Shown one piece after another: positions 54,386 through 61,758 of a DNA stretch of 64,000 bases. Source of the stretch: Woeseiaceae bacterium (GTDB taxonomy: Bacteria; Pseudomonadota; Gammaproteobacteria; Steroidobacterales; Woeseiaceae); assembly GCA_021773075.1 (NCBI GenBank), contig JAJFKT010000010.1:186001-250000 (forward strand), read 5' to 3'. The notes below the pieces were generated by a model that saw only the letters and a list, made by a program, of their open reading frames with translations, had not been told where the DNA came from and did not search any database. Position numbers and translations under genes: made by a program. Positions within the stretch are counted from its first letter, which is position 1. The number at the start of each line of letters is the position of its first letter.

Positions 54386-55924
54386 CTATTTGCGGTCACG
54401 CGATCGACGCTCACTCGATCTGCGGCCGGACCGCTCATTGCTGCCACTACTTTTATTATCCCGCCGGCGAGACTCCGTTTGCCGCTGCTGAGTACGTGCG
54501 GGTGCTCGCTCCGTTCGTGCCGGTGTCTGGCGTTGTGTCCTGGCAGGCGGTGATGCTCGCTCCGTTCGTGCCGGTGCCTGGCGTTGTGTCCTGGCAGGCG
54601 GTGATGCCCGCTCCGTTCGTGCCGGAGCCTGGCGTTGTGTCCTGGCAGGCGGTGATGCCCGCTCCGTTCGTACCGGTGCCTGGCGCTGTGTCCTGACAGG
54701 CGGTGACGCTCGCTCTGATCGCTGCGGTGCAGAACGTCGTTCTGTCCGCTGCTGAGACTGTTGTCGGTTCTGCCTGTTACTTGCCTGGTAGTTGGAGTCA
54801 GGCGATCGTTGCTGATGCGCGCCGCGATTAGTTGTGGCTCGATCCACTGACGTGTGTGTTTGTCTTGAGGTGCTTCGATGTGTGACGCGGGCATCCCTTT
54901 CGCGAAACGAAACCGGCTGATTTCGGTGTGTCTTGTTGACGGTCGCGCTGCGCCGGCCTTCGCGAACGGCTCGCGTTTCTGCTCTTGCATAGCCTTCGCG
55001 GCGGACGTGTTCACGTCGCCTCGTGTTCGGACGCCAGCGATCGCCGTGCGACGAATGATTCACCCGGACAGTGGTGTTGTTTACATAGCTCGTGTTGTAA
55101 ACGCTGATCGATGGGCGGCGATACCAGCCGTCATTCCAGTAGGTTCTTCCGTAATACGGGTGTCCGCGATAGCTATGGTGATAGACATGCAAACTGTCTG
55201 ACATCCAGCCGATCGAGAACGCCGTGGTTACGCCCCAGAAATAGCCGCGATTGAAATGATGATTCGATGCATACGGGTAGTAGTAGACCGGACGTGGTCG
55301 CGGATAGTAGTAATAGACCGGTCGCGGTTGATAGTGCACAACGCGAGAAGGTTCGTAGTAGGGCACGTAGATGACGTCTTCGACCGCGGGCGTAATATTG
55401 ATAACCCCGTCGTTACTCGCGACCGTCTGATAAGAATCACTTTTCAGGTTACCAGCCGCATAAGCGACATCGCGAAAAGACTCTACCGCTGCGACGACAT
55501 CGGCCTGCTGTGCAACAACGGCTTCGCCGAGACGCCAGGTCCAGTCGAGATCCTTGTTGAGAAGCTCTATGACTTCCGGATAGTTCGTCAAAGCCACAAC
55601 TGAATCATCCCAGTCAGGGTCAGGTTGCAGCGTTGGATCGTCTTTCAGTGCCTCGAGAAAACGTGCTGCCTCAACGATCTGCAAAGGATACGCCGAAGCC
55701 GGCAAAACGATAGCCAGTAAGTCATCCGGATACAATGCGATCGGCCCGACCAATTCCTCCAATTCCGCCTGCGACAGGCGCGGAATACCGTCGTCACCAA
55801 TAGGCATAACCTCGGCCTGCGACTCATAGCTGCCGATGGCATTGCCATCATCGTCAACGGGCACCTGGGCAAAAGCCAGGGTAGGTAGCATCATCAGAAG
55901 TACTTTCGTCTTAAGAGCTTTCAT
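54386..55924 (-). CDS. DUF3300 secreted protein with Arg/Pro-rich tail
   Basis: A 512-aa protein with a signal peptide (MKALKTKVLLMMLPTLAFAQ). The DUF3300 domain (about 50-220) shows LSQAELEELVGPIALYPDDL, LAIVLPASAYPLQIVEAARF, ALTNYPEVIELLNKDLDWTW and the tyrosine-rich DVIYVPYYEPSRVVHY. A His/Tyr-rich middle follows (NHHFNRGYFWGVTTAFSIGW). The last 190 residues are very basic and disordered and contain four 17-residue repeats of the type ERASPPARTQRQAPART. The family is exported but its role is unknown; the basic tail suggests binding to nucleic acid or anionic polymer (inference). Confidence 0.85.
   Translation of the reverse strand: MKALKTKVLLMMLPTLAFAQVPVDDDGNAIGSYESQAEVMPIGDDGIPRLSQAELEELVGPIALYPDDLLAIVLPASAYPLQIVEAARFLEALKDDPTLQPDPDWDDSVVALTNYPEVIELLNKDLDWTWRLGEAVVAQQADVVAAVESFRDVAYAAGNLKSDSYQTVASNDGVINITPAVEDVIYVPYYEPSRVVHYQPRPVYYYYPRPRPVYYYPYASNHHFNRGYFWGVTTAFSIGWMSDSLHVYHHSYRGHPYYGRTYWNDGWYRRPSISVYNTSYVNNTTVRVNHSSHGDRWRPNTRRREHVRREGYARAETRAVREGRRSATVNKTHRNQPVSFRERDARVTHRSTSRQTHTSVDRATTNRGAHQQRSPDSNYQASNRQNRQQSQQRTERRSAPQRSERASPPVRTQRQAPVRTERASPPARTQRQAPARTERASPPARTQRQAPARTERASPPARTQRQTPARTERAPARTQQRQTESRRRDNKSSGSNERSGRRSSERRSRDRK
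54504..54707 (-). repeat. Four 51-bp tandem repeats in the DUF3300 gene
   Basis: Units at 54504-54554, 54555-54605, 54606-54656 and 54657-54707 differ at only a few positions, so this is a recent expansion. In frame they encode 17 residues each in the basic tail. The in-frame period means copy number can change without frameshift. Confidence 0.92.
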
Positions 55925-59085: not shown

Positions 59086-60243
59086 TCAGGCAACCGGTAG
59101 TTCAGCCGGTTCGGATGTTTCCGTTTCGACGCCCGCGTAATACACCCAGACGTTTTCTTCGCCCGTGAGCAGCTCGATGTATTTTGGGTGCACGAATATG
59201 TTTTCGCGGCCCGATTTTACTTCCCTGAGAACGCCCAGCTCGCACAGTTGTTTCAGGTACACCGACGCTGTTTGACGTTTGGCGATGCCAGTTTCGACCA
59301 AATTTCCGATACGGCAATAGGGTTGTTTGAAGAGCAGTTCCACAAGCTCCCAGGTATATATCTTGGGCAAGCGCGTTTGCACGAATTCGCCCGTGTGTTC
59401 CATAAGCTCCCGAATCGACTTGATCTTGTCAGTGGTCCAGGTACAGGTTTCCTCGACACCATCAAGGATGAACATTATCCAGGGTGCCCAATCCTGACTA
59501 TTTGTCACGTTTTGCAGCAATCGATAGTAAGCGGCTTTATTCTGGATAATGTAGCGGCTGAGGTACAAAATGGGCGAATCGAGCAGTCCGTGCTCGACGA
59601 GGAACAAGATATTAAGGATTCGTCCTGTTCGGCCATTGCCATCAGCAAACGGGTGAATAGCTTCAAACTGGTAATGTTGCACCGCCAAGCGCACCAGAGG
59701 ATCGAATTCGGTATTGCGGTGCATGAAGTCGGCCCAGTTGTCGAGTTTTTCGAGAAGAAGTTGCTGTCCAACCGGTGGCGTATAGATCGTCTCTCCCGAC
59801 ATACGGTTTTTCAGTGTTGTTCCTGGTTCTGCTCGGATATCAAGCTCCAGGCCTTTGATAGTGCTACAAATTTGAATGGCCATGTCGGTCGTCAGCATGC
59901 CGCGCTGTACCATCTTCGTACCCTCGTAGAGCGCGGTCCGATAACGCAAAGCCTCTTTGGTCGCGGCGTCAGCGCGATCCTCGGCGATATCGGCGTATTC
60001 AAAGAGTTTGTCCGTGGTCGTGACGATATTCTCAATTTCTGAACTGGCGCGTGCCTCCAGTAATGGCAGGGCATTGACGAGCACCGCTGAGTTCGGAATC
60101 AGCTCAGCAGCCTGTTTAAGCTCCGCCAGTGCGACACGTGACTTGATGCAGCGTTTGAGAATAGTGGTGGTTTCTATCTGATCCGCGGGCGGCGGCAGCA
60201 TCGGTAGATCGTTGAACGGTAGTTCCGGATTAAAATCAGTCAC
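59086..60243 (-). CDS. Class II Fic-domain protein (AMPylator) with C-terminal winged helix
   Basis: A 385-aa Fic protein. The catalytic motif HPFADGNGRTGR is complete. The inhibitory helix carries the class II motif S-xxx-E-N (SSEIEN, in LEARASSEIENIV), whose Glu blocks ATP gamma-phosphate binding, so activity is probably restrained until relieved. The opening NPELPFNDLPMLPP, an N-terminal helical region, and the C-terminal winged helix (CRIGNLVETGIAKRQTASVY, LKQLCELGVLREVKSGRE) match the SoFic-like architecture. Targets are unknown. Divergent from the sugar dehydrogenase gene across a repeated DNA array. Confidence 0.92.
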   Translation of the reverse strand: MTDFNPELPFNDLPMLPPPADQIETTTILKRCIKSRVALAELKQAAELIPNSAVLVNALPLLEARASSEIENIVTTTDKLFEYADIAEDRADAATKEALRYRTALYEGTKMVQRGMLTTDMAIQICSTIKGLELDIRAEPGTTLKNRMSGETIYTPPVGQQLLLEKLDNWADFMHRNTEFDPLVRLAVQHYQFEAIHPFADGNGRTGRILNILFLVEHGLLDSPILYLSRYIIQNKAAYYRLLQNVTNSQDWAPWIMFILDGVEETCTWTTDKIKSIRELMEHTGEFVQTRLPKIYTWELVELLFKQPYCRIGNLVETGIAKRQTASVYLKQLCELGVLREVKSGRENIFVHPKYIELLTGEENVWVYYAGVETETSEPAELPVA

Positions 60244-60273
60244 TTAAGCTCCCCTAAGGCTGCAATGATGAAA

Positions 60274-60450
60274 CGTCGATCCAATCGACATGTTTTGCAA
60301 ATATGTCGATATTCTCTAGATTTTTCGACATGTCGAAGAAATGTGTCGATGTAATCGACGTGTCTTCGATATATGTCGATATATTGCGGAAATTTCGACA
60401 TGTTTGGAGTATATGTCGATTACATCGACAGGTTCGTGACTTGTGTCGAA
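60274..60450. repeat. 70-bp periodic TGTCGA/TCGACA array
   Basis: At least a dozen half-sites of TGTCGA or its inverse lie in 177 bp. They follow one layout repeated every 70 bp: a paired site TGTCGAT-N3-ATCGACA at 60274, 60344 and 60414 (with small mismatches), a single TGTCGA(T/A) at 60304, 60374 and 60444, and an inverse TCGACA at 60325 and 60395. In unit 1 the inverse site is extended to the palindrome TCGACATGTCGA (60325-60336). The array spans the divergent promoters of fic and the sugar-dehydrogenase gene. Confidence 0.85.
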
Positions 60451-60549
60451 AAAACGGAGAAATTTGACCTTAAGTCGGTAAATGGAGACATCGTGACAGC
60501 CTACGCCAAGCGGCATAAGCTCTGGCTGGACCCTATGGAGGTTTTTCTG

Positions 60550-61758
60550 ATGAGACCAATAACGATATTCGCCCTCTGCTTCGGTGCTGCGCTAGCAGTG
60601 AGCTGTGGCGGCGGCGGTGGTGGTGACACAGGCGTCGTGATTGAGCCGCCTCCTGCAGCTACGACACCAACTATCACCACTCAAGCGGCATTCCCAAATT
60701 TGGCTTTTTCGCAGCCAGTCGCCCTTATGCAGGCGCCGTCTGATCCAGGTCGCTGGTTCGTCCTGGAGAAATCGGGGCTTGTGCATGTCTTTGCAAACGA
60801 CCAGAACACGACGTCTCCGAGTGTCTTTCTTGATATTCGTGCCCTCGTCAATGCGAGCGGTGAGGGCGGACTACTGGGGATGGCGTTCGATCCGAATTTT
60901 CCGGTCAAACCCGATGTCTATGTCTCTTATACACGTACAGGCGCGCCGCTGGTTTCCTATGTCTCGCGCTTTTCCTCCACTGACAACGGCCAGACCCTCG
61001 TGGCGGCATCCGAAGTCCCGATTCTGACGGTCGATCAGCCGGCCACGAATCACAACGGGGGTGATATCGCATTCGGTGCTGACGGTTTCTTGTATGTCGG
61101 TTTTGGGGATGGCGGTGGCAGCGGTGATCCGGCGGGGAACGCGCAAAACACAAACACTCTGATGGGCGCGATTGTTCGTTTGGATATTAACGGCGGTTCA
61201 CCATATGGAATCCCGGCCGGGAACCCATTCGAGGCAAACATGCTCTGTACCGGTGGCGCGGGAACCGAGCCCTGTCCCGAAATCTACGCCTGGGGGTTGC
61301 GCAACCCGTGGCGATTCAGCTTTGATTCGACAAGCTCGAAGCTATGGGCAGCGGACGTTGGTCAAGGGAATTGGGAGGAGGTTGACGTAATCAATGCCGG
61401 CTCAAATTATGGGTGGAATACACGTGAAGGTGCGCACTGCTTTTCGCCAGCCAGTGGCTGTGCAAATAGCTTTGTAGAGCCGATTACCGAGTACGACCAT
61501 AGCCTTGGGCAGTCAATTACCGGCGGCTATGTTTATCGAGGATCAGTCATTGCAAACCTGGCTGGCTGGTATGTCTTCGGCGATTTCAGTTCTGGCCGAT
61601 TGTTCGGTGTTCCCGAGGCCAGTACGACTGGCACAGTCGCGACGATATTTGATGACACAGGCCTGCAAATTGTGAGTTTTGGTCGGGCCACAGATGGTGA
61701 AATATATCTTCTCGATTTCAGGAGCGGCGGCATAAGTAAAATTGTGGATGCACCGTAG
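60550..61758 (+). CDS. Sugar dehydrogenase-type beta-propeller lipoprotein (GSDH family)
   Basis: Start at the ATG at 60550 (GGAGG at 8-nt spacing), about 402 aa, a lipoprotein signal peptide with Cys in LAVSCGGGGG. The glucose/sorbosone dehydrogenase propeller is recognised by LLGMAFDPNFPVKPDVYVSY, the PQQ/metal-site segment NHNGGDIAFGADGFLYVGFG, LRNPWRFSFDSTSSKLWAAD and GWNTREGAHC (with two Cys further on, CANSF). PQQ-dependent sugar oxidation is possible, but many propellers of this family are of unknown substrate. Divergent from fic. Confidence 0.88.
   Translation: MRPITIFALCFGAALAVSCGGGGGGDTGVVIEPPPAATTPTITTQAAFPNLAFSQPVALMQAPSDPGRWFVLEKSGLVHVFANDQNTTSPSVFLDIRALVNASGEGGLLGMAFDPNFPVKPDVYVSYTRTGAPLVSYVSRFSSTDNGQTLVAASEVPILTVDQPATNHNGGDIAFGADGFLYVGFGDGGGSGDPAGNAQNTNTLMGAIVRLDINGGSPYGIPAGNPFEANMLCTGGAGTEPCPEIYAWGLRNPWRFSFDSTSSKLWAADVGQGNWEEVDVINAGSNYGWNTREGAHCFSPASGCANSFVEPITEYDHSLGQSITGGYVYRGSVIANLAGWYVFGDFSSGRLFGVPEASTTGTVATIFDDTGLQIVSFGRATDGEIYLLDFRSGGISKIVDAP

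Follow-up and report, generated by a model that had tools for sequence, protein, structure and literature searches.

In a 64,000-nucleotide stretch of the Woeseiaceae bacterium assembly GCA_021773075.1 (contig JAJFKT010000010.1, positions 186,001 to 250,000; hereafter the window, numbered from its first letter), a gene for a class II SoFic protein adenylyltransferase (fic) is preceded by a 70-bp periodic array of TGTCGA half-sites. From comparison of sequences we propose that this array is very probably the operator of the fic gene and that SoFic is its own repressor. SoFic dimers would bind pairs of TGTCGA half-sites, cooperatively, through the C-terminal winged helix of the protein, and bound Fic would block RNA polymerase and so keep the toxic adenosine monophosphate (AMP)-transferase scarce. 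Release of Fic from the operator would occur during phage infection. SoFic acts against phages as a toxin, and cloning it is difficult unless it is tightly controlled (PMC12249575). An operator inside the promoter, recognised by the C-terminal domain (CTD) of the toxin itself, would offer an answer to how cells silence SoFic and turn it on. The operator is kept across phyla and is also present at the SoFic gene of E. coli.

The repeat unit of the array is TGTCGA-N5-TCGACA-N13-TGTCGA-N15-TCGACA-N13 (N, any base), in which a dyad recurs every 35 bp and palindromes of 17 bp and 27 bp alternate (Table 1). Forward half-sites start at 60274 (CGTCGA), 60304, 60344, 60374, 60414 and 60444, and reverse half-sites (TCGACA) at 60285, 60325, 60355 (TCGACG), 60395 and 60425, so that two of the 11 carry one mismatch each. 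In a scan of the window the 11-site lattice scored 64 of 66 letters at 60274 (best score in 12 Markov shuffles, 34), and the six top places listed per strand were the array itself followed by lower-scoring shifted or reversed registers of it. A chance origin of the array is excluded. The preliminary description of this DNA, which was made from its letters, had reported a periodic 70-bp array between the Fic gene and the divergent gene, and this was borne out; the palindrome TGTCGAT-N3-ATCGACA, which it placed at 60274, 60344 and 60414, is exact at 60414 only and has one mismatch at each of the other two positions.

Table 1. Features of the fic locus and its operator array in the window (., no strand assigned)
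Feature	Position	Strand	Remarks
Operator array	60274..60450	.	11 half-sites, 70-bp lattice, 2.5 units; window sequence and lattice scan
17-bp palindrome, unit 1	60274..60290	.	Closest to fic, one mismatch; window sequence
17-bp palindrome, unit 2	60344..60360	.	One mismatch; window sequence
Distal 17-bp palindrome	60414..60430	.	TGTCGATTACATCGACA; abuts the -10 box of the predicted fic promoter; position by comparison with other loci
27-bp long palindrome	60304..60330	.	TGTCGA-N15-TCGACA
27-bp long palindrome	60374..60400	.	TGTCGA-N15-TCGACA
Last clear half-site	60444..60449	.	Expected partner near 60465 degenerate
Predicted -10 box of fic promoter	60408..60413	-	TATACT
fic	59086..60243	-	Class II SoFic protein adenylyltransferase, 385 aa, GTG start, HPFADGNGR and SSEIEN
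SoFic-like_C domain (winged helix)	59179..59406	-	Codons 280-355; likely DNA reader; PF21248, 5.5e-36; weak model
Recognition helix	59236..59283	-	AKRQTASVYLKQ..., codons 321-336; Q324 covaries with half-site
GSDH-family (glucose/sorbosone dehydrogenase) lipoprotein-like gene	60550..61758	+	Divergent; outside the system on present evidence

The encoded protein scores 586.6 bits against the NCBIfam equivalog NF046030 (cut-off 550) and 9.6e-121 against the PADLOC SoFic model, and contains the Pfam domains Fic_N, Fic and SoFic-like_C (PF13784, PF02661 and PF21248), the last of which corresponds to the C-terminal winged helix noted in the preliminary description. Class II Fic proteins are defined by an inhibitory motif (S/T)xxxE(G/N) ahead of HPFx(D/E)GN(G/K)R; here SSEIEN occupies residues 67-72 and HPFADGNGR residues 197-205, and among 24 aligned proteins both motifs are invariant except for A200. 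A structure model, weak by its predicted local distance difference test score (pLDDT 65), served only for placing the recognition helix; its fold matches were led by SoFic 3ZCN (Z 31.8, root-mean-square deviation 3.2, 338 residues aligned). In SoFic-AS1 toxin-antitoxin pairs a small AS1 gene lies downstream of the toxin gene; in the window, an open reading frame encoded on the opposite strand terminates 70 bp away from the stop codon of fic.

The array accompanies the gene in other genomes. Fic at 71% identity or more over its full or partial length was found in 26 of 60 relatives, and a DNA match to the array (E ≤0.0032) lies directly upstream of fic in 24 of 24 relatives, two more being cut at contig ends. 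Twelve genomes of the same genus lack an intact fic, and the best match to the array anywhere in them has an E value of 0.013. Ten of these 12 contain fhs (formate-tetrahydrofolate ligase), which in the window lies downstream of the GSDH gene. In nine of the ten, the DNA beside fhs contains no remnant of Fic and its five-site score is 17-20 out of 30 (positive controls, 29 and 30). The tenth (G001) retains two short stretches of fic, for residues 1-30 and 298-320, and a degraded part of the array that lies between them and fhs and scores 23 of 30 (shuffles ≤20); these remnants are at L318 1146-1412. In that genome gene and array have decayed together while fhs stayed. The preliminary description had named absence of the array from orthologous fic genes as grounds for doubt, but the orthologues carry it. 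Regulation of fhs by the array was considered and rejected, as genomes without fic keep fhs without an intact array.

In a wider survey of species genomes, restricted to the best 80 of 383 SoFic loci (59-90% Fic identity), in-register TGTCGA half-sites were found upstream in 75 of the 80. Carriers, as named in their records, include Woeseiaceae, Gallionellaceae, Thiobacillus, Geobacter, Rhodocyclales, Lentisphaerae, Acidobacteria and Alphaproteobacteria; these are metagenome-assembled records, with contamination possible in single cases. Spacings are exact to the base (70, 40, 30, 21, 19 and 11 stand high in pair counts) and the spacers diverge in sequence. Woeseiaceae operators consist of two to about five tandem units; the most half-sites in this survey were the 21 in register over ~370 bp at L111, and the array is present at L024 as well. 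The suggestion that the array is a multi-dimer operator and not noise is upheld by a lattice that accompanies fic across phyla and scores far above shuffles. SoFic genes with a TGTCGA operator were also seen on two viral contigs from IMG/VR (L245 and L246, 28/30 and 30/30).

Within its own 4.09-Mb genome the element is singular. The exact palindrome TGTCGAT-N3-ATCGACA occurs once, at 60414; exact TGTCGA-N15-TCGACA occurs twice in the array and once elsewhere (C19:809428, with a GC-rich spacer); and the three-site pattern, with up to two mismatches allowed, has four matches in the array and a single one outside it, which carries two mismatches. Since the exact palindrome is found once and the only outlying three-site match has two mismatches, there is no second multi-site array in this genome, and the dispersed repeat that the preliminary description had held out as a reason for doubt was rejected. 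An apparent second array in a relative (G002:C26) proved to be the same neighbourhood cut by a contig edge, where GSDH and fhs adjoin. It is exceedingly unlikely that the repeats fold into hairpins, as RNA or as cruciforms, or that they are a mobile or dispersed element. They are inverted, and a terminator scan flagged two 6-bp stems; however, of 70 TGT-N15-ACA pairs in SoFics of 50-66% identity (a number that includes chance pairs), 33 have arms that differ, TGTCGA being joined with TAAACA in 11 of them, and such arms would pair poorly. An RNA hairpin was rejected on this ground. Rfam gave no match; among the matches listed, full three-site matches away from fic were seen only in one genome (G055, discussed below).

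The layout is kept when the letters change. Four of the five species-genome loci without TGTCGA keep it with TGTTTA, TGTCGC or TGTCGT, as judged by a five-site test in which the layout is fixed and the half-site letters are free (shuffle maxima 22-24). This test found TGTTTA at L144 (28/30), TGTCGC at L150 (30/30) and L162 (28/30), and TGTCGT at L149 (26/30) and L145 (24/30). At L141, which has other letters, the test missed the layout (22/30). In most Fic proteins below 50% identity the five-site test found nothing, because this layout is not theirs; 6-bp inverted repeats starting with TGT nevertheless peak there at a spacer of 15 (15 pairs in 14 of 43 loci), with six pairs in four loci at spacer 16 and at most one at other spacers, in a scan where the rows for L220 and L226 are incomplete and carry wrong coordinates. 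In a Pantoea plasmid (L253) and in E. coli (L308), two half-site types alternate in a fixed pattern (TGTTTA with TCGACA and TGTCGA with TAAACA), as if two affinities had been built in.

The letters of the half-site follow the recognition helix of the Fic protein. From 125 usable proteins, of which only nine were Woeseia-type rows (fewer near-copies), 105 remained after removal of rows more than 95% identical, and 75 had an assignable half-site. Proline at residue 324 goes with TGTAAA (6/6) and isoleucine, leucine or methionine with TGTATA (16/17, the other being TGTTCA). Helices reading K-R-Q go with TGTCGA in 31 of 34 cases (two TGTTTA, one TGTCGC), (Q/G)RQAASR with TGTCGC or TGTCGT (4/4), and S/T-R-Q of a second branch with TGTTAA or TGTTAG (7/8; one TGTTCG); six other x-R-Q rows have TGTCGA (five) or TGTTAG (one). 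The mutual information between residue 324 and half-site over the 75 proteins is 1.143 bits, a value reached in none of 5000 shuffles (maximum 0.417), in a test that is inflated by the relatedness of the proteins. In a tree built from the catalytic core, with the DNA-binding domain left out, the pairing of proline with TGTAAA appears in three separate places, including Hymenobacter inside an L-TGTATA branch, and R-P-T proteins from Bacteroidota plasmids have TGTAAA, as do the alphaproteobacterial ones. The rule was then applied to two further sets. The first comprised 20 loci with the rule fixed in a script; one (L267) was excluded as the same gene as L213, and four of the remaining 19 (L265, L271, L290 and L292) gave no prediction. 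Eight of 15 predictions were clearly right, six by an N15 pair (L263, L264, L266, L270, L273 and L282) and two by eye at N16 (L281 and L284), and two were partly right (L272 and L283). In the second set, nine plasmid loci to which the rule was applied by hand and of which one had no readable helix, six of eight agree (three of them close relatives), L303 agrees partly and L302 does not.

Such a protein-DNA code, mainly one helix residue against three half-site bases, would predict operators for this defence family. The suggestion in the preliminary description that Fic binds its own promoter is, on the linkage, the joint decay and the covariation of half-site with helix, strongly supported. 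It is very unlikely that a different regulator, be it a factor of the host or a partner protein like AS1, binds the array and controls fic, with no specific DNA binding by Fic. Separate repressors can run defence genes, as RptR does (PMC12255303), SoFic DNA binding was undemonstrated as of 2023 according to the available text of one report (PMC10628234), and the main text of another describes the EcSofic CTD as a regulator of toxicity, the terms HTH (helix-turn-helix), winged and transcription being absent from it (PMC12249575). However, the same partner would be needed in each of the several phyla that carry the operator with SoFic, the Bacteroidota proteins have their own TGTAAA version, the half-site letters track the Fic recognition helix, and, of the neighbouring genes searched for in Woeseia-type loci, none accompanies the array throughout.

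An inverted-repeat operator at the gene's own promoter, of the kind described for the Fic protein CccR, can be read in these sequences and is clearest outside Woeseiaceae. SoFics of 50-66% identity have 35 short palindromes in 32 loci. Promoter boxes were counted where they matched at four or more of six letters and stood at exactly the distance for which the palindrome forms the 17-bp promoter spacer: a -35 box was present at 22 of the 35, a -10 box at 19 and both at 14, against 0.8% of all positions in those regions. In 23 of 35 the palindrome starts 56-58 bp ahead of the start codon. Many of these loci have, by eye, one more half-site, which overlaps this codon (TCGACATG or TAAACATG). With a palindrome at the promoter and a half-site on the start codon, bound Fic would stand in the way of the polymerase. 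A chromosomal SoFic gene is found in 278 of 5426 complete E. coli genomes, and the two loci that were read both have the operator. The E. coli protein at L308 agrees with EcSofic at 11 of 11 residues checked, and its length of 358 aa is that of PDB chain 9VJC. The upstream order in E. coli is TGTCGA-N15-TAAACA, GTGACA, the 17-bp TGTCGATGACAACGACA, TATTAT and TGTCGA-N15-TAAACATATG, and there are more units at a distance of about 70 bp from one another. In Woeseiaceae this basic operator would have been expanded to tandem units, with a conserved -10 box beside the distal palindrome; 54 of the 64 family loci retain ATCGACnTATACT as their -10 region. A TCACR block was also seen ahead of the distal palindrome, at the expected -35 place (window 60431-60445; 28 of 64 loci by one pattern), and TGTCACGATGTC recurs farther out, between the array and the upstream gene, in several loci by eye; these blocks are perhaps an activator site.

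Several observations weigh against autorepression by SoFic. The operator could also serve activation, and the high affinity of CbFic2 for random DNA (PMC10628234) means that the winged-helix domain need not be sequence-specific. In the covariation set, 30 of 105 proteins had no half-site assignable by the rule, some of which may sit inside operons, and a sign test on independent pairs had one to three pairs only and no power for significance. Among the 15 predictions, that for L287 was wrong (TGTTCA instead of TGTATA), L289 is mixed, with one TGTATA arm and one TGTTCA arm, and L268, L269 and L291 had no site. The helices R-L-T-A-S-R of L287 and L289 thus pair with TGTTCA (mixed at L289) and not with plain TGTATA, from which it follows that residues beside 324 also matter. 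Below 50% identity, the restriction to TGT was chosen after the closer relatives had been seen, and without it no spacer stands out sharply, with 24 pairs at N13 and 18 each at N15 and N16. The -35 of the window is poor (CGAACC at 60436-60431), and both boxes are present at only one of 65 short palindromes in the window's own family; since that family has no recognisable -35, the case for promoter occlusion in it comes from the -10 box only. The genome G055, in which no SoFic orthologue was found, has a full operator without a SoFic gene, which suggests a remnant or captured operator. Four in-register half-sites are present there (L187 1500-1560; G055:C19:40762-40807 onward), upstream of frames that were named HipB-like and HipA-like by eye. 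Finally, mismatched single palindromes exceed a reversed-pattern control across the window's genome (658 versus 150, and 39 versus 13), so that there may be weaker sites at other genes of this genome.

The length of some arrays raises the question of a further role. It is unlikely, if worth considering, that the lattice is mainly a DNA sink or allosteric site, on which Fic dimers are restrained or stimulated on the chromosome, with repression as a side effect. Up to 21 half-sites in register are more than simple occlusion seems to need, DNA alters the dimerisation and activity of CbFic2 (PMC10628234), and the position of the CTD and dimerisation matter for the toxicity of EcSofic (PMC12249575), whose dimers have been shown in the same report. 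Yet several SoFic genes have only four to six half-sites, located on the promoter, which fits plain repression; few molecules would fit on one array, and no activity data were found for SoFic with DNA. Along with repression, the operator might also act as an antitoxin, which we consider improbable: the lattice would restrain toxic SoFic dimers, and breakdown of host DNA by a phage would free them to AMPylate their target. T5 phage breaks down host DNA. Sofic protects against T5 (PMC12249575). If this were true, it would be DNA, instead of an antitoxin protein, that senses the integrity of the genome, and the amount of toxin restrained would rise with the length of the array.

The gene divergent from fic belongs, by domain match, to the GSDH family. 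Translation of this gene probably begins with the ATG at 60550, just ahead of a lipoprotein-like signal, and not at 60373, which falls inside the array. The preliminary description had suggested that Fic controls both divergent genes together, which the gene order in relatives does not favour. It is quite unlikely that a two-way operator couples fic to the sugar-dehydrogenase gene: the array of the window does lie inside the shared intergenic region, and the TGTCACGATGTC block mentioned above stands between array and upstream gene, but the predicted -10 box reads toward fic, and in a motif survey of 63 Woeseia-type loci (upstream stretch up to 3 kb) GSDH was upstream in only 17 (14 of these also with fhs), whereas in-register half-sites were present in 63 of 63. 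The survey found fhs without GSDH in 22 loci and neither gene in 24, six of which have short flanks. The presence of the array is independent of GSDH. Elsewhere in the window, a minus-strand gene at 54386-55924 encodes a protein with several C-terminal repeats of a unit like QAPARTERASPPARTQR.

The window protein is a member of the family of the anti-phage system EcSofic (PMC12249575, PMC3667792; PDB 3EQX, 3ZCN and 9VJC). For the E. coli protein, a crystal structure of the catalytically dead variant H194A has been reported (PMC12249575). The available text of this literature covers auto-inhibition, dimerisation, CTD contacts and the AS1 antitoxin, and contains neither an operator nor DNA binding (PMC12249575, PMC3667792); among the matches listed in searches of open papers, no published SoFic operator was found. 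Later SoFic structure entries (9TB0, 9TC4, 9TCH and 9TCL) may bear on DNA binding. The statement in the preliminary description that no described system has such a layout was too strong with respect to CccR of Yersinia pseudotuberculosis, a proven Fic-HTH autorepressor, which represses its own promoter as a dimer on an inverted repeat, as demonstrated by footprint, gel shift and reporter assays (PMC9755527). CccR resembles SoFic in having a Fic domain with a C-terminal HTH and in being a toxic AMP-transferase; it differs in its low similarity to SoFic (29% identity over 45% coverage), in its secretion by a type VI system, and in its site, which is described as a single AGATAATCAT-N26-ATGATAATCT with neither lattice nor TGT half-sites (PMC9755527). 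A site of that type, with two 10-bp arms and N26, was not found here, the spacers being N5, N15 and N13. The SoFic array is thus a new layout, and autorepression by a Fic-HTH protein is itself already known from CccR. CbFic2 of Coxiella burnetii is, like SoFic, a class II Fic protein with a winged-helix CTD, and its binding to DNA leads to dimerisation and activity; it was tested on random DNA, however, and the available text describes no operator of its own (PMC10628234). A 70-bp lattice with 35-bp dyads would be an unusual higher-order repressor complex. The Xre-RES system is comparable in that a toxin system shuts off the promoter from which it is expressed, through higher-order binding at palindromic repeats (PMC12204516). 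In Xre-RES the DNA is read by the toxin-antitoxin complex (PMC12204516), whereas SoFic would be toxin and reader in one.

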